Shown piece after piece: positions 15,816 through 45,734 of a stretch of 64,000 bases of DNA. Under the pieces are notes generated by a model. That model worked only from the letters and a program-made list of their open reading frames with translations, was not told where the DNA came from and ran no database searches. Numbering within the stretch: position 1 is the first letter of the stretch; every line of letters starts with the position of its first letter. Position numbers and translations under genes: made by a program. Source of the stretch: Capsaspora owczarzaki ATCC 30864 (taxonomy: Eukaryota > Opisthokonta > Filasterea); the NCBI RefSeq assembly GCF_000151315.2, contig NW_011887299.1, positions 526,894 to 590,893 on the forward strand, given 5' to 3'.

Positions 15816-16099
15816 AAGAGGACGTCGCTCCTTCTGCATTGTTCCTCATGTTTTGAATTCGTGCTCTTCTTTGAATAGTGTCTTTTTGTGTGTGTGTGTG
15901 TGTGTTTTTTTTTTTGTTGTTGTTGTTGTTGTTGCTCTCCTTTCATAAACCTTGATTTCATTCTCTTCCATCATGTCGTCGTCCTCGTCGTTGTTCGTTC
16001 AGCACACTCGTTTTTCTTCTTTTGATTGTTTTTGTCATCATATTTTTGGCGGGAGTTTTCCTTTTTTCCTAGCTTTTCTTTGCCTATTTGTGGTATGAC
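15816..16099. other. Intergenic gap OPA1/PBZ-kinase
   Basis: 284 bp with a (GT)n run (about 15887-15904), a T-run, a (TTG)n run (about 15916-15934) and pyrimidine-rich sequence up to the kinase ATG. It serves as the OPA1 3' end and the kinase promoter; no specific site was recognised. Confidence 0.5.
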
Positions 16100-18947
16100 A
16101 TGTTCTCACTCAAGGCTGCGCGGGACATCCACCACGCCATCCACTCGAATGCCGTGAGCGTCAACGTATCTATCGCTGGAGGCCCCGAGCAGACCTTCCG
16201 GGTCGAGTCGACGGCGTCGCAGCATGTGCGCTTTGTGAATGCGGGCGGGATCAAGTTCATGGCCCAAAACACGTCAAAAAAGTCTGCCTACGCCCAGCGC
16301 GCACTCCAAGGCGAGCGACTGACGTGGATTCTCGCTGGTGCCGGCTTCCACTCGTGGGGGCTTCTGGCGCAGGCAAAGCGATCCGGGCTGGGTGGCGCAG
16401 ATGGCCCAGTACGCGTCGAAAAGAAGTGCAGCGTCATCCGCAGCGACGGTCCCGACGATGGCAAGGCGCTGCCTGCTGCTGGAGCTGCTAGCAGTGACAC
16501 AGAGGAGGACGAGCCTGTCGTCCATTCATCCCGTGGCATGTCCATGGTCGACGAGATTGGCGTCAAGGCAGAGGAGGATCCGGATGTCGGTTCTTCCACG
16601 ACGAATGGAGCTAGCACCGCTGCCGCTGTGGGTCGTGTCCCTCGTCGCCGTAGCGGATTGACACCATCGCCAGCTGGCTCTCGAAAGAGTCGCCAACGCT
16701 CTGCCAGTCAGCACGGTGACGGTGGCGACGACGACGACGACGAGGCGTACAATGCAACGCTGGATGGTTTCAACTCGGACGAGGACGACTCGATCCCGCG
16801 CCGAAGAACGATGACTCGCCAGTCAACAGCACGGCGACGGTTGACATCTGCTGGGTCGTCTTCTTTGGGCGATTCCGACAAAGCAGGCGCTGCTGGAGAC
16901 CATTCGCACAGCTCATCGCGTTTGCAGCCCGCGGCTCGCGGCAAGCGACCGGCAGTCGATGCAGATCGCGTTGACTGGAATTCGCCGCATCCTTACGCAG
17001 CCTATGACCTCGTACCAGAGCGCGGCATCGATTTTCAGCAAAGCAAGCGCAGTCGCTCCGACGATGTTCCGCCCGCAACTTCTGCCAATGCCGCAAATCC
17101 CGTCGGCCTTCTTCGCAGCAGTATCAAGCCAGCTAGCCCAGCTCGTTCACTGGTATGTAGTGACAAGAGGAGCAATTGCGGTGGTGATCCATGTTCGGGT
17201 TTTAAGTCGAAACTCATTTTTTTTCCTTTTTTTTTTCGCAAACAGTCTTCGAGCTCACCCTCTCCGGGCCCCTCAATACCAAATCACGGACTTCGCGAAA
17301 TATTTGCAAGCGACAATCGTCCTGTTTGTACCTATCATCCTCATTGCTACCGAAAGAATGTGGAGCACTTGAAGCAGTTTGCTCATCCGCCAGGCATTGG
17401 CGGATCTCCGGTCAAGGCTGCCGACCCGCCACAAGAAGAAAACGAACCCGAAGAGTCTGATGCCAACTCTGCCACTGCCGCCGCGCTATTTGACAAGCAG
17501 TGGCAGATTGATTACCGGTACATCAAGTTTTTGGAGCAGCTTGGCGTCGGAAGCTTTGGCCAAGTGCGCAAAGGAATATTGCAAGATCGCACGGTTGCAG
17601 TCAAGCTGCTTCACGATCAGCACCCAAACCGAGAAGTCCGGGACCAGTTCTTCCAAGAAGCTCAAACACTGCAGTAAGGGCCAACTTTTCACTTTTGCCC
17701 TGCTTCATTTCTCCCGTTCTCATCGTTCCGTCGCATCGCTCATTCAATTGCCATCCCTTTGAACAGAAAACTGAGGCACCCGAATATCGTCGAATGGCTT
17801 GGCATCTGCTGTGACGGGCTTCTGTGCATCGTGATGGAGTTTGTGCCATCCTCACTACAACAAGCCCTGAAGTCTGGCCCAATCGCCGAGACGGAATACT
17901 TTTCAATAGCTCACGACATTGCCTCTGGGCTGCTGTATTTGCACAACCTGCAGCCGCCCATTATTCATCGCGATATCAAGCCAGCCAACATTTTGGTAAA
18001 AGCAACAAAACAACTGTCTCGATTTTCTGCTTGTGTCGGTCGTGCGCCGGTTCGTTGAAGTGTTTGGTAACAATCACACTCACGCTTGTACATTCCTACA
18101 CATCCAACAGCTTGATCAGGCAGGTCGAGCTAAAATTGCCGACTTTGGCATTTCGCGCGAAGACAAGTCTTCTACAATGACCAGAATCGGTACACCGTAC
18201 GTTCCTCTTGCGTGTTTTCTTCTGTGGATGAGCCCAGTTTGATGAAGGGTGTACCGTGCAAACTGTATCGCTGTTTTTTTAGGGTCATCTGACCTGTTTG
18301 CCATTTTCTGCAAACACAGATCCTTCATGGCCCCAGAAATCGCCATGTCTCAGAAATACAACACCAGCGTGGACGTGTATTCATTTGGGCTGTTGTTGTG
18401 GTCCATGTTGACTGCCCAGACCCCGTTCGCAGATCTCAACCTGAACGGCTTGCAGCTGCTCATGCTGATTTGCTCGCAGCGCAAGAGGCCCACTTTCCCA
18501 CCATTGGTGCACTCGTCGCTGCAAGGATTGATTGCGAGATGCTGGGATCATACACCGTCCAATCGTCCATCAACGCAAGAACTCTGCTCGATTCTCTTGA
18601 ATTTCAAGAAAAGTGGCATTTCGCCAATCGACCCTTCTACTGGCCAGGCAACCGTTGCTCTGACCGCAACGGTTGCCTTTTCTAGCGCGGTACCGTCTAT
18701 GGAAGCCGTCTCTTCAGTACCAGTCAAGCACCCGCGGCCCATCGCTGAGCCCGAGTTTGTTGCACCGCTGCCCGTTGTGGTGCCAATGTCGGTGAATCGG
18801 AGCGTTGCTTCTCCTGCGGTAGTAGCAGTAGCTGCAGCAGCGGCTGTCGACTCGGACAGCGGTCAAACCCTCGCCGTCAGTCTGTCTCAAGGTGACGATT
18901 CCAATGAAAACGATGGCGCTGCCGTATCTAATATGGTGCTCGTGTAG
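16100..18947 (+). CDS. PBZ zinc-finger protein kinase (TKL-like)
   Basis: Predicted soluble protein kinase with a poly(ADP-ribose)-binding zinc finger. Exons: 16100-17152, 17246-17673, 17767-17995, 18111-18196, 18320-18947; 807 codons plus stop, frame closed. Residues 1-110 form an unrecognised conserved-looking module (FVNAGGIKFMAQNTSKKSAY, LTWILAGAGFHSWGLL). A Ser/Asp/Arg-rich disordered stretch with Lys/Arg clusters follows. Residues about 376-398 match the PBZ pattern: Cys-Thr-Tyr, then CYRKN, His, and FAHP. The kinase domain (about 441-692) has the Gly loop GVGSFG, VAVK, HRDIKPANIL, DFGIS and APEI, so it should be active; sequence style is tyrosine-kinase-like (TKL). The 93-nt intron 17153-17245 is stop-free and in frame, so retention would add 31 residues just before the PBZ. 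The tail is Val/Ala-rich. The stop is 48 bp from that of the convergent CaM KMT gene. The ATG is the first in frame after the OPA1 gene. Confidence 0.88.
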
Positions 18948-36690: not shown

Positions 36691-38602
36691 CTAGCAACGC
36701 CTCGTACTAGAAGGATACTTGCTCTTGAGATCTTGCTTAAACTGACGGAAGAGACTGCGGTTGGCGTCGTTCTCTTGGGACTTTTGCGTGTGGAAGGACT
36801 CGGGCTCTTTGAAGCCCTCGTGCAGTAGATACCCTCCTGTCAAAACCTCAAAGTTGAAGCCCGACACCCATGTCTGAAAGGATGAATCAAAGGAGTCAGT
36901 CTTCCAAAGCGACCGAGGAAAGCCACCTAAAGTCGACAAAAACCCGTAGTACTGATCTCACCTCGCAAACCTGGGAGATGCGGTTAAACCCATACCGCTG
37001 GAAACGCTCGTCATACAGCGGCAAGTTGGTCCATGAGATGTAGAATGGTTCCCATGGATCTGAGAATGCACGGGAGGAACCGAGAATCAGCAACGCAGCC
37101 AGCACCACAACCAAAACTGCCACACGCACCTTTCCAGTCGACCTTGTACGTGGGCTTGGAGATGGGTGAGGTGACAGAAAGCCACTGGTCAAAATCTGTT
37201 GGCTTTTGGCACTTCCAGCACGCCTTCTCGTAAAACGGCCTGGAAAACCAAAAAAACAGGACAAAAAAAATATCAGTAAACCACAAACGTCGTGACAAGC
37301 AGCAATCACACACGTCCACTCACCGGGCGTTGCCTTGTAGATAGGTGTCAATCAGTTGCTGGCGAATACGAGGGATGGGCGCACCGGCTTTGAGCTCAAA
37401 GGTCGGCACAACAAATGCAGTTCTCAGCGAAGCGCGAGGCCGCTTGTCTGCGAGGCGCAAAAACCAAAGCCGAAGCCCGCGCGACGGACGCATGTCAATG
37501 TCAATCACAAACATGAAGGTGCTGGACACGCCAGAGCGAGCCACGTTGCGCAAAAAGTTGTTGGGATACGGCACGCCATCGTATTTGGCGGGTGCTTTCT
37601 GCTGCTGCAGCTTTGGTCGGACCGCAGTCCCATTGTTGGCGCGGAGCTCTTCGTACGGATCCTGGAAGTTTTCGCACGCGCCTTCCAGCGGCAGTTCAGA
37701 CGCAGCCACCTCCTCATACACGGACTCGTTCTCCATGTAGACGAGATGGAAGCTGACTCGCTCGCGGACTCGGTCATGGCAGGCTCGAATCTGACGAAGC
37801 GTCGCCAGGGCCTTGTAAACGTTTCCAGGGATGAAGACAGCTGCGTGCAAGAAGAGAAGATTTGGGGGGGGGGTGAGAACGCGAGCAGCAAGGAGGAAGG
37901 GAGAACGCAGTAGTGTTGGGGATCTTGATGAGTTGGACACTTCAGTGTCTCCTCACTCCCCTCTCGACCACAGAGAAGGCTCGGCGATTCGCTAGATTTG
38001 TTGTTGATGCTTGGAAGCTTGCTTGTCTTGGTGGAAGCGGGGGGTGGGGGGGGTGGAGCGCAAAACGAGAGACAGCAAAACTCACCAACGGAAACGGGTC
38101 CATCCCAGTACTGGGCAAGGCCAATAGCTTCGTGCAGGTGGTCCGCGTCGCACTGGGACACGAGGGTCACGTCTGGTTGCTCAATTGCAATCTGTCGCCT
38201 CACGTAGTGCATGTGGATGCGGTACTTGCTCGACTCGTCCAGCGGAAGTTGACTGAGGACCTGTTCAAACTGCTCGCGCGTCTCAAACGTGGGCGCGGGC
38301 TCCATCGCCTGCTCATTCAGCAAGTTCTGGGCGTCCAGTTCTACTCGCAGCTGGTAGAGTGGGTCGCTGTGCAGGCTCTCCCCGCTCTCGGCCTTGGGCG
38401 CAGTGCTGGTGCTGCGCCTGCTGTCGTTTGGCGCAGAACCCGACCTGTCAAACTCATTATTCCCGTCCACCACCGGCGCTTTGACGGCTGCTGGTCCGGG
38501 GAAGTGGAGGGCATCCTTGTACATGACAAAGGCGATTGCACCAGTCACCAGAATCACTGCCGTCAGGGCGAATGTCGAGCGCCGACGTCGACAACACTGC
38601 AT
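36691..38602 (-). CDS. GT49 glycosyltransferase, B4GAT1/LARGE-like
   Basis: Type II Golgi-type glycosyltransferase of the GT49 family, related to B4GAT1 and the C-terminal half of LARGE, which add glucuronic acid in matriglycan priming or extension. Minus-strand exons: 38602-38086, 37840-37324, 37239-37130, 37059-36962, 36873-36691; 474 codons plus stop, frame closed. ATG 38602 starts a short Arg-rich cytoplasmic tail followed by one membrane anchor (about residues 10-29, [19 protein letters not shown]). After a stem region come [37 protein letters not shown] and the metal-binding VIDIDMRPS (DxD-type). The C-terminus has [20 protein letters not shown] and GGYLLHEGF, the usual GT49 ending. The donor and acceptor sugars cannot be decided from sequence. 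It lies downstream of the LRR gene on the same strand, separated by 421 bp. Confidence 0.9.
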
Positions 38603-38646
38603 TGGGGGAGGACTTTGTTTCGGTGTCAAAAAGTGTGCGAAAAAAC

Positions 38647-38686
<40 letters not shown>

Positions 38687-39023
38687 AATGTTCGCTCACT
38701 CAATTCAGCGATCGTCTGCAGGGTTTACAAGATGGACGAGAAAAATATAGGTGGGTTTCGAAATAGCTGGCAGAGGTCGTGTCATTGAGACTGTTGAAAC
38801 TCGGCAGCTGAAAAGCATATTTTCAATCAAAATCTCAGGCCAAATTCAAATGGTGAAATACATACTTTTACTGTTGTGCTGGACACATGCAGAGGACAGA
38901 CAGCGCACATGCAATTGGTCGAACAATGCTGTACAAGCGGGGCACCATGAGGTGGTCTCGCGGTTGCTAGAAAAAGCTCATGACAATAAACAAAAAAACC
39001 ATCAAAAAACGACTCGCTTCCGT
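38603..39023. other. Intergenic gap upstream of GT49, with a 35-nt A-run
   Basis: 421 bp between the GT49 start and the LRR gene stop (same strand). An uninterrupted A-run of about 35 nt occupies 38648-38682. The rest is AT-rich without a coding signal. The long A-run lacks target-site duplications or an upstream element, so it is read as a simple repeat. Confidence 0.6.
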
Positions 39024-42000
39024 TTAAGCGCAAACGAAGCGAACATTATCCAGCGTAATCATGCCCTTGACTGGAGAATGGACCTCCAGGACAACGGCAT
39101 GCAGGCGACTGGCGTTGAAACCTGCGGGAAGCGACGAGAAGGGCACCACGACCGTCTGGAACGCATCGTTGAAGGTCGTGTACGCCTGCAACGGCACACT
39201 GACTTGCGTGGACCAGGTGGTGCACTTTGCATTGCGCATTTGGAGAACAAGGACCAGGTTTGTACCTGCAGGTGCTTTGACGTCCAGCTGGAGAGCACTA
39301 AAACGGGACGCGTCGAAACATGTTTTGGGCTGGTTGCCGCCAAGCAGCGAGTACCAGTACGAGTCGCCGTCGACACTTCCCACAAGCTGCAACGTGCCCG
39401 CCGACTGCTTGAACAAGTCCATGGAGGCATCGTCGTTCGTGAGATAGCCGAGCGAGTTTGTCCAAGCGCGATTGTCGCTAAAGTCGTCAACCACCACTGG
39501 CGAGCAGGCAGGCGGAGAAGCCGTCGGTGTTGCCGAAGAAGCGGTGGGAGTTGCATACGGCGACGCGCTTGGGGTCGGATTAGAGCAATGCGCGGACTTG
39601 AAGAACTCAATCTCATCAACCAGGATTGTGATGGGATTCGGGCCGAATCCCGTCAGGACGAGTGCGTGCAGGCGCGTCAAAGAAACGCCACTAAAGGCGC
39701 TCAGCGGAATGGTAATGATCTTTTCGGTACCATCGAAGGGGCTGGGAGAATACTGCTGGAGTGCAACAGATGCGGGAGAGCCGGTGACTGTGTGGCAATC
39801 CTTGGTCTTGGCTTGCAACTCGAGGCTAATACGAGCCTGAGCCGGGGCAGTGACGCGAAGACGGATGTAGTCGTGCTTGGAGCCATCAAAGCAGGCGTTA
39901 GGAGCCGCCAACGTGGTGGCCCAAAACGAGTTGCCTTTCGCCTTGGTGGTCAACAACAGACGACCGTCGTCAATCGCAACCGATTTCATCGAGCCGTGGT
40001 CTCCTGATGGCAAGCCGAGCAAGTTGGTTTTCAGCGATTTCATCGTGTTGAAACGCTCAATGACAAGATGCTTGGGTTTGCAACCAGGCGTGTGGGCTGG
40101 GTCGAGGCGGGCACGCCGACGAGGACGTGGGCTGCGGGACGCACGCTCCGTTCGACTTGACATAGCCGTCGTAGCACTGTGTGCAGGTCAAGGTCGAGTT
40201 GCAGACCAAGCAGTTTGTTCCACAGCAAGCGTTTGCTCCCGCAGCAAAGCAGGTGGCGCACGAAGGATGGCACGCTATCAAGCAGAAAAAGCGAGAGAGA
40301 GGTGAGAGACGAGCGCATGAGCCTGCACACACGCACACACACAAAAAAAACTCACGCGTGGGGAACTCGGCAGTTCCGAAGGTACTCGGGGGCGCGATCG
40401 TGTTTCCGGCAAAGGTAAAGTTATTGAACGAAAAGTCGACAAACGACAGAGCGGTGAGATCCTGGAACAACCCGGGAGGCAAGGTGGTAAACGTATTGCC
40501 AGCCAGCGACCTGTAGGAGGAACGTTGGCGAGTGACAGTCAACAACAGGAGGCAGCGAGCGCCTCGACGAAGCCAACCTCGCGACTGGGACACTTACACA
40601 GTGATGAGTGCCGACAGATCCGACAACAGTCCGCTTGGCACGCTTGTCAGCTGGGTGTAACTCAGATACCTGCATGCAAGGGATTGTGTAAGTTGCGTCT
40701 GCTGAAACAAGAACACGCAAGCAAAAGCACGATTCTTACAGCAAAGAAAGCGACGGGAGATTTTGGAAGACATCCGCAGGCAGGCTCGTAACGTAAGCGT
40801 TGCCCAGTTCACTGACGAAGCAAGGCAAAACAAGAAATGGAAAGTGAGGTGCCAAAATCTCCTTCCTGCGAGATTGTCTCCGAGGACGAACTTACAGCGT
40901 AAAGAGCTCGCTCAAACCTGCAAACACGTTGGACGGGAGAGTTGTTGCAAGAAGATACGACAACGAGCTGCAGCGAGTCAACGGAAGGTGGTTGTGAATG
41001 AGTGGCTCGCCCATTGAAGGAAAATGGGGGAAACTGTGTGGTTTCAACCTACAGATAGTTCAGCTTCGGCAGGTTCATGAACACGTAGGGAGGCAGGCTC
41101 ACAAGCCGAGTAGCGCCCAATTGACTAGACAAGCGGTGCACAGCATGAATGAGAACAAGGCCGTTGAACGATTCGAACGCGCTCGGATGAAAAGCATTTA
41201 CAGAATCTGGAGCTGACTCAAGCCCTGGAACACCTGGCTTGACAGGGTGGCGAGTTGAGAACCGCTAAAGTCTCTGTGTTGCAGACGAGAGGGTGAGTCC
41301 AATTGGTTGGTTGCAGGCGAGACTGCACTTGTGCGCGTTGGATCCTTACAGGTTGATCAGAGAGGAGAGGTCGGAAAACACGTTGGCGGGAAGGCCTGTG
41401 AGAGGTGTGTTGCCCAAAGTCCTGCGCGCAGTGCTTGCAAGAGTAAGACATTGTTGCAAGGCAATTTCTGATGTTGTGATGCGGGTCGCTTACAAGTACT
41501 GGAGCGCAGTCAGCCCAGCAAACGAGTACGGCGAAACGCTGGCAATTTGGGTGTAGTCCAAGTACCTGTGTGTTGCGCAAGAGGATGCATGCTGTCGTTA
41601 GCAGCCATACGTGCAACGCGCGCAACAGTACAAGGTCGAGGATGGACGAACAGCGTTTGGAGAGACACCAGGCCGAAGAATGCGTTATCAGCCACGGTTG
41701 CGATGGGGCTGCTTGAGAGATACCTGATGTGCAGCATCATGAGAGCAAGTGATGAGCAAAACTGCGGTGAGCAGCATTAGAGCTCCGCACAATAGCCAAC
41801 TTACAGCGTCAGAAGCGAAGAAAGGCCATTGAAAGAATTTGCCGAAAGCGTTGTCAACTGCGTCGAAGACATCTCCCTGTAGCATGGTGTGAGTCAAACT
41901 CCTCAGCTGCACAACTAACATGCAAGTTGCTACAAACTCATACAGGTTTGTCAGCGAAGTCAATCCAGTCCAGGTGTTGGCAGAGACGCTCGTCAAGGGA

Positions 42001-45000
42001 GAGAGGGACAGGATTCTGCCAAAAGTCGCCATGAAATCGCAGCGTAAGCAGACGTTCGATGCAACCAGAGCAATTTCCCTGAAACCCCTACAAGTTCTGC
42101 AAAGCGCCAAGCCCAGCAAATGCATTCGGTTCGATAAAGGCGATTTGTGTGCCGCCCAAGTTCCTGGCAAGTCGCATATAACAAAAAACCAGATGAGTAC
42201 GAGAGGCATTGATATCAGCGTTGATGCCCGCATGTCTTACAGCAGATGCAGTGCAGACAGACCCGTCAGAACGCCAACAGGCAAGCTGGTGATTGGGTCA
42301 AAATTCAGCGATCTGTTGGAAATCGAAAATGTGGTCAGAGACTCGAGCCTTTTTCGTAACTTTGCATCACAAGTGTCGACTGGCTTACAGCGTTGTCAGC
42401 AAAGTCAATCCGATGAACGCGTTGGGCTCAATTGTCGTGAGCAGAGAGTTTGAGTCCAGGTACCTAGCGCTCTTTCAAGTGAGTGACTCTCGGAGCAATC
42501 GATTCGTTGCAGAAGCAGTGCATCATTTCGTTTGTGTACAGTGTGTTGAGCAGCCCGAGGTTTGAGAACTCATTGGAGTGGATCGTGGTCAGTTGAGTGC
42601 TAGCCATTGAGCTGCACGTAAGGCAGTCCCGACAACAATCAAACAGGGGAGGGATTAGACCAGATTTCAGCGCGACTCATCTGCCGAGTCGAGTTTTGGG
42701 CGTCCTTACAGCAGCTGCAGGCTGGGAAGATTGTCGAAGGCCGTCTGGGCAATGCTGGTAATGGGAGAGCCGTCCAAGAAGCTTTGAAACACAACACCAA
42801 GTTGTTTGTTAGTCAATCTTCAAGTGGAGACAGGAGTCACCGCTGCAATGCTAGGCGTACAGTGTCTGCAGCAAGGTGAGGTTGGCAAATGCGTGTTCGG
42901 GCAGCACGGTGATTTGAGAAAAGCCCAGATCCCTACGAGAACGGGCGAGTGTTGAGTTTTGTAGTTTGGCAATCGACGTCCGCATACATTGTACAGCATT
43001 TTGAACAAAACTTACAAGTAGGTCAGCGAAGCAAGGCCTGAGAACACATTCTCTGGAATGGTAGCGATTTGGGTTCCTCCAAGGAGACTATTCCAATGGT
43101 TCAATGTCAGCACTTTTCAGCTGCAAGCTCTCCCCCCCTCCAATTCCGTCGTCGTCGCAAAGTATGGACGGCGATGGAAGGACGTACAGCGTCTGAAGGT
43201 TTCGAAGATTGAAAAACACGCCAGGCTCAAGTGCAGAAATGGGCGAAGATCCTGCCGCCCTACTCCGCCAGAGCAGCGTCGACTCGTTAGAAGCCCAAGT
43301 GCGTGTTTGATGCCCAAATCAGTCGAAGCTCTTGATCAGTTTACTCACAGGGACAAAAGGTTGACAAGATCGCTGAAAAGATTGACCGGAATGCTCGCGA
43401 GTTGAGTAAAACCCATGGCTCTGTGCGATCCCATTCGCAAAGAAAATGAGCAACGACGCCGAACACACGGAACAAGTTTTTGCAGTCAGAATGGCGCTTT
43501 CATCAGGTTCATACAGGAAGTTCAGAGAAACGAGACCATTGAAGACGGTGCTGGGCAAGCTTGTAAACGGATTTCCATTCAGAGACCTAGGAGACCCCAA
43601 GCCACCGTCAATACAGATCAAACTACCCTTGAACTCAACCATTCTGTCATCATCTCTTACAAGCTTTGCAAGTTGGTCATGCCGCTAAACGCCTGGGGGT
43701 CAATGCTGGAAATCTGATTCGAGCTCAAGTCTCTGCAGTCACTCAGTGGAAGGTGTGAGTTGCACGCTTGCCAGGTCGTTACCAAGCATGATCAACGTAC
43801 AAGGAAGTCAAGGCACCGAGCGCGCTGAATGCGTTAGCTGGGATGGCAGTCAGCGGATTGGTGCGCATCGACCTGGCAACCAGCGTGTGAGCCTCAAGCC
43901 ACATGTGCCGTCATCCTCAATCAACAAGCGTACAGTGTGCGCAGCTGGGTCAGACTGGCGAAAGTGTTGCTGGTAATGCTGGTGAGCTGCGTGCTATCTA
44001 AAAAGCTGAGCGCGGGCAACAGGACAACATTTACATGTCAGTGACTTTGACGACGAGCGAAGGAGGGCCATGGCGCATCACAGTCAGTCATCTACATACA
44101 GGTTTTGCAAGGTAGGGATTGGCGCAAACACATTGTCCGGCAGAGAGGTGATCGGATTCCTGGCAAGATGCCTGGCGACGGGAACGAAACGTGAGTTTCA
44201 GTCGAGTAGGAGAGATAGACAGTCACAACAGAACTGTGCCGGTTTGTTTCGTACAAGTATGTCAGGGTTGTCAGACCTTGAAAGGCGTTTGCGGAAATGG
44301 TAGTGATTTGACCCCGACGCAGATCTCTGTCGAGAAGAGGCAAGCCACGTCAGAAAGCCGCTCGATTACGCTTCGTGCATGAAGTCGCTCAGATGCAAAA
44401 TATTGCTTTCGTTTGAATGTTTATCTTACAGCTGCTGGAGCGCAGACAGCGAGGCAAAACTAAGATCGGGCAGGCTGGTGACGAGACTGCTTTGCATGCG
44501 GCTGCATCGTCCAATGTAAGGTCAGTTATTTTCCCAGCCCCGAGAAACACACTAAACTAGCACACGGTCAAAAACAGCCACTTACAGCTGAAGCAGAGAC
44601 GACAGACCAACGAAGGTTTGCGGTTCGATTGTGGTGATGCTGGATGAGTCAAGGAAGCTGGCGTCGAAAAGATTTGGGAGAAGATGAGCGCTCAAGCAAA
44701 CCCAAATCAGTGCCAACCAGCCTTTTCCCAAATCCGTACAGGTTGCTCAACGAAGACAGTGGTGCAAACGGGCTGCCTTGAAGGGTGGCCAGGTTCACCG
44801 AAAAGCTCATGTCACTGAGTTTGGAGAAATATCACCATTGTGTGAGTCGCGATGCAAATGCAGATGTGCATCCGCTTTGGCTTTTGGTTTCCGCCTACAG
44901 ATCGGTCAGTGCTCCGAGCCCAGTGAAAGTGTTGGTTGAAACAGTTGTGAGTAACGAGGCCGTCATGGTGCTGTTCCACCAACAGACATCAAATGGAGCA

Positions 45001-45734
45001 TGAGACGTCATTGATCGCATTGCAACGAATGAAACTACATAGCAGCCACTAACAGGAACGTCAGAGCAGTCAGGGAGGAAAACACCTGGTCTGGAAGCTC
45101 GGTGAAAAGGTTGGCCGAAAGATCGCTGTCCAATCCAGGCATCAAGCACGCAAAAGTCAAAATGAGAGCGGCAATGCAAGTCATAGACGGTGGCGCGAGA
45201 GAAAGAGAGACGTACAGGTCGATGAGACTGGCGAGGCCCTGGAAGGCATTTGCCTCGATGGACGAAACGGCAGATGCGTAAAAGGACCTGCGAGATAGAA
45301 TGTTGCGATGAGCATGTTCGAGCAAAAGGTTTCTTCTGGCTATTCGTCACTCGCACGAACTCACAGCCTCTGCAAGGCGGACAGGCTATTCAGCGCACCA
45401 TTGGGGATGATCGTGATGGCGGTGAAGGACAGGTCCCTAAGTGTGCGAGATTGGGGAGTCGAGTTCAACGCTGGTCAGAACCCCAAAAAGACGAAACCAA
45501 AACGACTGTAAATATCAAAATCTCGTACAGGATTGTCGTGGTAACGGGAATGTTGGTAGGAATGGTAGTAATGGTGTTCAGGCAGTTGTTGACGGTGGTG
45601 TCGATGCAAGAACAAACGTCGCAGGCATTTTCAGCCAGAACTAGGGAGGACTGGTGGAGCGCCAAAACCAGCAAGAGGGCAACTGGAAGCAGCCGAGATG
45701 TGCCGGTCCTCGTAACTGACAGACGTTCCTTCAT
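39024..45734 (-). CDS. Secreted leucine-rich-repeat protein with Cys-rich and tandem beta-sandwich C-terminus
   Basis: Probable extracellular recognition or adhesion protein; function not recognised. Exon 45734-45529 encodes a signal peptide (LLPVALLLVLALHQSSLVLA) and a Cys-containing N-cap (ACDVCSC). Thirty-two following exons each encode one LRR (see the repeat entry). Exon 40510-40356 encodes a further LRR plus a non-repeat tail, and an exon starting at 40274 encodes a Cys-rich module (CHPSCATCFAAG, CCGTNC, CTQCYDGYV). The same stretch then reads, in another frame, two homologous beta-sandwich modules of about 150 residues, each ending in a TILVDEIEFF or MITLDNVRFV type strand and joined by a Pro/Ser/Thr linker, to the stop at 39024-39026. 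The frames do not join without one extra or missing base between about 40060 and 40140; alternatively the LRR protein ends at 40057 and the modules belong to another transcript. No membrane anchor or GPI signal is visible. Confidence 0.82.
40598..45436 (-). repeat. Array of 32 single-LRR exons, 72 or 75 nt each, all phase 2
   Basis: Exon spans (lower-upper): 40598-40669, 40740-40811, 40896-40967, 41053-41124, 41202-41273, 41350-41421, 41494-41565, 41652-41723, 41805-41876, 41944-42015, 42092-42163, 42241-42312, 42389-42463, 42540-42611, 42710-42781, 42861-42932, 43016-43087, 43188-43259, 43349-43420, 43515-43586, 43661-43732, 43801-43872, 43934-44005, 44100-44171, 44255-44326, 44430-44501, 44586-44657, 44740-44814, 44899-44970, 45054-45125, 45216-45287, 45365-45436. 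All are 72 nt except 42389-42463 and 44740-44814, which are 75. Each encodes one 24- or 25-residue repeat, for example YLSYTQLTSVPSGLLSDL. Every intron falls after the second base of a codon at the same point of the repeat, so any exon can be gained, lost or skipped without shifting the frame. Introns are about 60-110 nt and look unrelated to each other, so the duplications are not recent. Confidence 0.9.

Follow-up and report, generated by a model that had tools for sequence, protein, structure and literature searches.

How does a gene come to encode one leucine-rich repeat (LRR) after another, each on an exon of its own, and how can such a gene change its number of repeats without losing its reading frame? 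A locus of the filasterean Capsaspora owczarzaki ATCC 30864 raises these questions. The window, by which we mean the whole stretch of 64,000 nucleotides (nt) that was analyzed (assembly GCF_000151315.2, contig NW_011887299.1, positions 526,894 to 590,893 of the forward strand), holds a minus-strand gene in which 32 consecutive exons each encode a single LRR. We consider it likely that this gene is an old member of a large family of LRR recognition proteins, that the family uses a portable unit of one exon and one intron, and that the product of this member is probably secreted.

Thirty-two exons of one repeat each

The gene model is a single open frame that begins with an ATG and runs through 34 exons. 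Its central part is the array:

40598..45436, minus strand: 32 exons of one LRR each in a row, 30 of them 72 nt and two 75 nt long, with predicted phase-2 GT-AG introns
44740..44814, minus strand: first 75-nt exon of the array, from the gene model
42389..42463, minus strand: second 75-nt exon of the array, from the gene model

Each array exon encodes one repeat of 24 or 25 residues and has AG directly before it and GT directly after it. The 32 introns downstream of array exons are 61-103 nt long, and all 33 introns from exon 1 through exon 34, including the one that precedes the array, lie in phase 2; the exon search behind the model was restricted to this phase. Of the 33 introns, 32 interrupt a Leu codon and the last a Val codon. 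An exon-chain finder trained on the array exons returned a single chain of at least three exons in the window, with 33 members (exon 34, read in truncated form, makes the 33rd), and no chain in three shuffles of the window. In a splice-blind scan of the window, a peptide profile picked out 32 LRRs, with both AG and GT in place at 30 of them and one of the two at the other 2. Gene model, chain finder and splice-blind scan all confirm what an earlier, sequence-only reading of the locus had counted, namely 32 exons of 72 nt (two of 75), one LRR each, with introns at a uniform position. The coordinates that it gave hold for the array, but the gene is larger and extends from 45734 to about 39027.

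In an alignment of 30 of the 32 repeats, Leu is invariant at column 21 and nearly so at column 18; the Leu of column 24 was entered by hand from the split codon, and the last repeat has Val there. Their consensus and conserved Leu positions place the repeats in the 24-residue typical LRR class, and Pfam LRR_8 matched one of them, below its cut-off. The possibility that the array is intronless or has been misread was rejected in view of the varying intron lengths, the splice dinucleotides located exactly at the repeat edges and the in-frame stops that 26 of the 32 introns would introduce if retained.

Since the same Leu codon is split in the same phase, the number of repeats could change without disturbing frame, splicing or LRR fold. 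Among all 561 forward exon joins, the normal ones included, the residue at the junction is Leu in 530, Phe in 30 and Val in 1, and no join creates a stop. These joins bear out the suggestion that the exon equals the repeat unit and can be skipped or doubled in frame.

The array belongs to a gene family

We searched the genome for similar arrays. The pattern FxGLxxLxxL with GTR directly after it occurs 614 times in the 27.46-Mb genome, compared with 26 occurrences of the reversed pattern; the window accounts for 12 matches, with 0 in 100 shuffles. Among the 100 places listed, 90 fall into 20 groups of at least two and 10 stand singly. We then read 35 loci, picked for LRR hits, pattern matches or matches to the C-terminal domains of the window gene, and arrays of 72-nt phase-2 single-LRR exons are present in 10 of them. 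Across these loci and the window, the splice-blind profile, which was trained on the window, returned 142 LRRs, with both AG and GT in place at 122, one of them at 13 and neither at 7. The long array that had been singled out as striking is real, but it does not stand alone: other loci of the genome hold arrays of its kind.

Gene ends were examined in five relatives, namely one of the two genes at locus L022 and the genes at loci L032, L033, L034 and L035. Three parts of the window gene have homologous counterparts in relatives:

45529..45734, minus strand: exon 1, encoding a signal peptide (judged by eye) and an LRR N-cap that contains Cys; phase 2 at its end; identical in 22 of 43 residues to a relative's exon 1
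40356..40510, minus strand: exon 34, with the 33rd LRR and a C-terminal cap; leaves in phase 1; identical to the L035 cap at 29 of 58 aligned columns
40135..40274, minus strand: first part of exon 35, a Cys-rich module (furin-like by eye); identical in 26 of 46 residues to the relative at L022 (E 5e-15)

Exons 1 and 34 share the phase of the array on the sides that face it, and a search that accepted phase-2 donors only found a donor in the corresponding position downstream of exon 1 in all five relatives. A query made from one relative's frame, spanning its Cys-rich module, transmembrane segment and tail, gave 159 matches genome-wide. Of the 150 that were examined, 99 start at or before query residue 20 and cover the Cys-rich module, and the module matches occupy 98 places at least 1 kb apart, a figure that counts matches and not whole genes.

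A clear transmembrane segment follows the Cys-rich module in L022, L034 and L035 (best 19-residue hydropathy 2.83-3.35), and values are lower, at 1.9-2.0, in L032 and L033. The tails of L022, L034 and L035 contain 7, 6 and 8 tyrosines, several with a hydrophobic residue at +3. These three of the five relatives would be single-pass membrane proteins. Their tails are predicted to be phosphorylated and could serve tyrosine kinases and proteins with SH2 domains, of which 34 matches occur in the genome. A transmembrane segment with a tyrosine-rich tail was sought in the window protein and not found; the window gene is kin to the family with Cys-rich module, transmembrane segment and tyrosine tail by its N-terminal part only.

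Array growth by duplication of an exon and its intron

The paralogues at L032 (C1:110000-114000, minus strand) and L033 are 99.4% identical over 876 nt, with 87-94% identity in other aligned stretches. In L033, Tandem Repeats Finder reported a 138-nt unit of exon plus intron in 2.0 copies with 100% matches; L032 has one copy. Direct alignment placed the difference at the duplicated unit, where L033 is longer than L032 by exactly 138 nt. Arrays can therefore lengthen by tandem duplication. L034 carries a 137-nt unit of exon plus intron in 8.5 copies. A 274-nt period, over a somewhat longer stretch, scores higher there (1508, against 1304 and 1178), and units may therefore also be copied in pairs. 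Length change by recombination, which had been proposed for the window gene, is thus seen in its relatives L032 and L033 but not in the window gene itself.

The introns reveal an age gradient among the arrays. Mean intron identity is 0.735 in L034, 0.71-0.72 in L032 and L033, 0.64-0.66 in L022 and 0.57 in L035, with 0.54-0.56 for shuffled introns. We propose that the building block of the family's arrays is a portable unit consisting of one LRR exon with one short phase-2 intron, and that units would be gained or lost by unequal crossing-over between neighboring units.

Age of the window array

The introns of the window array have a mean identity of 0.538, compared with 0.525 after shuffling. 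They are almost unrelated, and the array is therefore old, as the sequence-only reading had supposed. A recent expansion was considered and rejected because the tandem-repeat search reported nothing of the size of an LRR unit and intron identity is near the shuffled level. Two measurements count against an old array: the mean score of intron pairs is -5.2, compared with -6.6 (sd 4.0) for shuffled introns, and the best pairs score 9.5, 8.0 and 5.0 when the largest shuffled score is 4.5. Intron similarity in the window does not track exon similarity (Spearman 0.03, p 0.51), so we read the excess in the pair scores as shared composition and short splicing signals.

The repeats themselves retain a periodic trace. 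At the protein level, repeats separated by even lags are more alike than those separated by odd lags, by a margin that 2 of 5000 permutations attain. Taken singly, lag 2 gives p 0.0018 for protein but only 0.06 for DNA, and single-lag values should be read with care, as twelve lags were examined. Column 6 follows the same alternation: 8 of the 16 odd repeats have Pro there, and 10 of the 16 even ones have Gln. We infer that the window array is an old product of the duplication process that made the young arrays.

The window gene beyond its array

Downstream of the Cys-rich module the gene model departs from its relatives:

40057..40135, minus strand: apparent frameshift stretch; the Cys-rich frame stops at 40057 and does not join the frame of the downstream domains
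39027..40094, minus strand: two tandem beta-sandwich domains that resemble carbohydrate-binding modules (CBM-like); no Pfam match, identified by structure model and Foldseek

The frame of the CBM-like domains is open from 40187 to 39027 on the minus strand and is 47% identical to a relative. It matched no Pfam family at E 0.01, and a search of solved structures with its sequence gave two matches at E 0.6 and 0.97, which are not meaningful. An AlphaFold model of this frame, computed from a four-row alignment, has a mean pLDDT of 76.5 and a pTM of 0.55 and is nearly all beta strand, in two stretches. Foldseek matched the model to CBM30, CBM11, CBM29 and CBM8 chains (8-14% identity; TM 0.56-0.68 when normalized to target length, 0.28-0.34 when normalized to query length), as well as to tandem CBM22 chains and many other beta-rich proteins, and the best match by E-value is a Bacteroides surface glycan-binding protein. 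The modeled domains appear to have a beta-sandwich fold resembling CBM30/11/8 modules.

Relatives of these domains were also sought in other places. A contig search for bacterial or archaeal relatives produced 23 pattern matches, of which 0 were confirmed. Three loci with related CBM domains (L029, L030 and L031) were considered as relatives of the LRR array and rejected, since no 72-nt array is present in any. L029 encodes a multidomain protein with PKD, L031 one with DMFA2_C, and the L030 frame has no Pfam match. At L031 (2-1990 and 5496-6424), a CBM-like domain and a dimethylformamidase-like C-terminal domain lie in one frame, and an LRR array of the ribonuclease-inhibitor type (RI-type), described below, is nearby.

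A hydropathy scan found no transmembrane segment in the window protein past its first 35 residues; the best 19-residue values are 1.34 in the CBM-like frame and 1.49 in the rest, counted from residue 36. Because of this, the term ectodomain, which had been applied to the window gene, does not fit it. With two CBM-like domains at its end and no membrane anchor, the protein is probably secreted. It shares the N-cap, LRR array, C-cap and Cys-rich module with its family. The long LRR solenoid would bind a ligand, and the end domains perhaps a glycan.

Alternative explanations

Several points weigh against this account of the gene and its family. All three finders (gene model, chain and splice-blind) sought phase-2 exons and donors only. 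L032 is without 74 nt that in L033 cover the acceptor and the first part of the first array exon, and for this reason 7 exons were found in L032 and 9 in L033; because that acceptor is missing, L032 may be a damaged copy and thus not a clean "before" state. The list of Cys-rich matches is incomplete, since it does not contain the Cys-rich exon of the window gene. The apparent frameshift before the CBM-like domains could mean that the end of the gene has decayed, that the assembly is wrong here or that an exon was missed. Finally, the introns of five arrays (L002, L015, L020, L026 and L027) have no excess identity over shuffled ones beyond about 0.01, so copied introns are seen in part of the family only, and independent intron gain is possibly compatible with lost intron similarity as well.

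Introns might, for example, have been inserted separately at the same codon of a once-intronless LRR gene, by way of a preferred insertion sequence at the split Leu. The window and the five arrays just named, whose introns have no clear relation to one another, would fit such a history, as would the many other LRR matches in the genome that lie in long uninterrupted frames of up to 1554 residues. Yet the young arrays of the family have introns copied along with their exons, and the donor after exon 1 occupies the matching place in L022 and L032-L035, all of which makes separate insertion highly improbable in our estimate. That the window gene is decaying, with the frameshift before the CBM-like domains as the mark of a pseudogene, also seems improbable to us: the Cys-rich frame does stop at 40057 while the CBM-like frame opens at 40187, but the 33 LRR units of the model contain neither a stop nor a broken splice dinucleotide, and the CBM-like frame is open and well matched to its relative.

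A different proposal concerns the use of the array, which could serve alternative splicing and let one gene yield many LRR-domain lengths through the skipping of single-LRR exons. All units are in frame, their joins mostly keep Leu and never create a stop, and alternative splicing of such exons has been published for brown algal ROCO genes (PMC11378527, sections consulted) and for NLRP3 (PMC6642158, sections consulted). Frame compatibility, however, already follows from the duplication history alone, and we think this use unlikely; the in-frame stops in 26 of 32 introns count against intron retention, not against exon skipping. We continue to favor duplication of a portable exon-plus-intron unit as the origin of the arrays.

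A second LRR class

A PF13516 search, in which 150 of 562 candidates were scored, had many matches in the loci read that are RI-type repeats of 28 residues on 84-nt phase-2 exons. A chain finder for these exons, which sought phase 2 only, detected 12 chains of 3-17 exons, spread over 10 of the 35 loci; the window and a single shuffle of it yielded no chain. Four of these loci are given here, and there are six more:

L010 3612-5918: RI-type array, 84-nt chain
L023 3931-6528: RI-type array, 84-nt chain
L017 4433-6636: RI-type array, 84-nt chain
L024 3762-6196: RI-type array, 84-nt chain

Intron lengths in the L010, L023 and L024 arrays mostly alternate near 65 and 83 nt, which suggests copying in pairs. 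By our reading, the intron of the RI class sits one codon further along the repeat than that of the 24-residue class; the intron positions of the two classes are therefore not the same. Just downstream of the L010 array and on the same strand, a frame with a protein kinase and a RING finger (L010 2054-3373) is perhaps part of one gene with it. An uninterrupted frame of 703 residues full of LRRs at L030 2514-4622 indicates that the genome also keeps LRR genes without an exon-per-repeat structure.

Relation to known systems

Single-LRR exons are already known elsewhere. In brown algal ROCO genes each LRR has a 72-bp phase-2 exon to itself, and exon shuffling and alternative splicing are reported (PMC11378527, sections consulted); the window gene shares this exon design. 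However, ROCO proteins are LRR-ROC-COR GTPases, whereas the present family combines a signal peptide and Cys-rich module with either a transmembrane segment and tyrosine tail or CBM-like ends; no ROC-COR domain was found in the C-terminal frame of the window gene in the Pfam search at E 0.01. A published large protist family resembles ours in its fixed exon length, its strong phase-2 bias, the unequal crossing-over proposed for it and repeat numbers that differ among close paralogues, but it differs in having 90-bp exons (72 or 75 nt here), thousands of genes and a retrotransposon link (none was sought here).

Among animals, glycoprotein-hormone receptors and LGRs have phase-2 introns (PMC11378527, sections consulted) and, as the sequence-only reading noted for the former, one LRR per exon, both like the window gene, but they carry a seven-transmembrane domain, and the window gene model, with no strongly hydrophobic segment, has none. 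In the human S/T-class and NLR families the LRR exons preserve the reading frame, and most NOD and NLRC genes have one 28-residue LRR per exon (PMC6642158, sections consulted). That repeat length is the same as in the 84-nt RI-type exons here, a comparison of length and not of intron phase; those sections describe no receptor family with a tyrosine tail among the human families. The present family is likewise not described in the consulted sections of PMC8662651 and PMC4079206, or in any title or abstract start among the papers listed by searches of the open-license literature on Capsaspora or filasterean LRRs, which is weak evidence of novelty.

What seems new here is the combination, within one compact protist genome, of a family of roughly a hundred members, an exact duplication of the unit in one relative and two LRR classes under one rule. 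The lengthening of such an array has been caught at one exact copy of exon and intron, beside old arrays that display the end state. The two classes bear on whether the one-LRR-per-exon designs of animal LGRs and NLRs were inherited or arose repeatedly. If repeat number varies among strains, the family would offer a testable system of recognition diversity in a unicellular organism. A broader picture is possible, though we hold it with considerable doubt: Capsaspora, as a single-celled relative of animals, may maintain about a hundred LRR recognition genes in an actively turning-over repertoire, their ectodomains reshaped by gain and loss of single units and many of them with tyrosine tails, together with an RI-type repertoire under the same rule. 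Such a system could provide modular recognition of self and non-self or of prey and microbes, and could predate, or have arisen alongside, the exon designs of the LGR-like and NLR-like kinds in animals.

Other features of the window and genome

Next to the LRR gene, a frame at 37505-38695 of the window has a weak, sub-threshold match to a LARGE-type glycosyltransferase (Glyco_transf_49). A run of about 43 A lies on the plus strand at 38640-38682, downstream of the last frame of the LRR gene. At 16073-18947 on the plus strand, a frame with a PBZ zinc finger is followed by pieces of a kinase domain, and together they are probably one intron-split gene. A search for the RHD family, which is present in Capsaspora, found no match, although it included no positive control. 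OPA1_C and T-box matches fit an opisthokont protist; the T-box matches fall at four sites of the genome, three clustered inside 35 kb at C9:400151-434694 and the fourth at C15:301383-302830.

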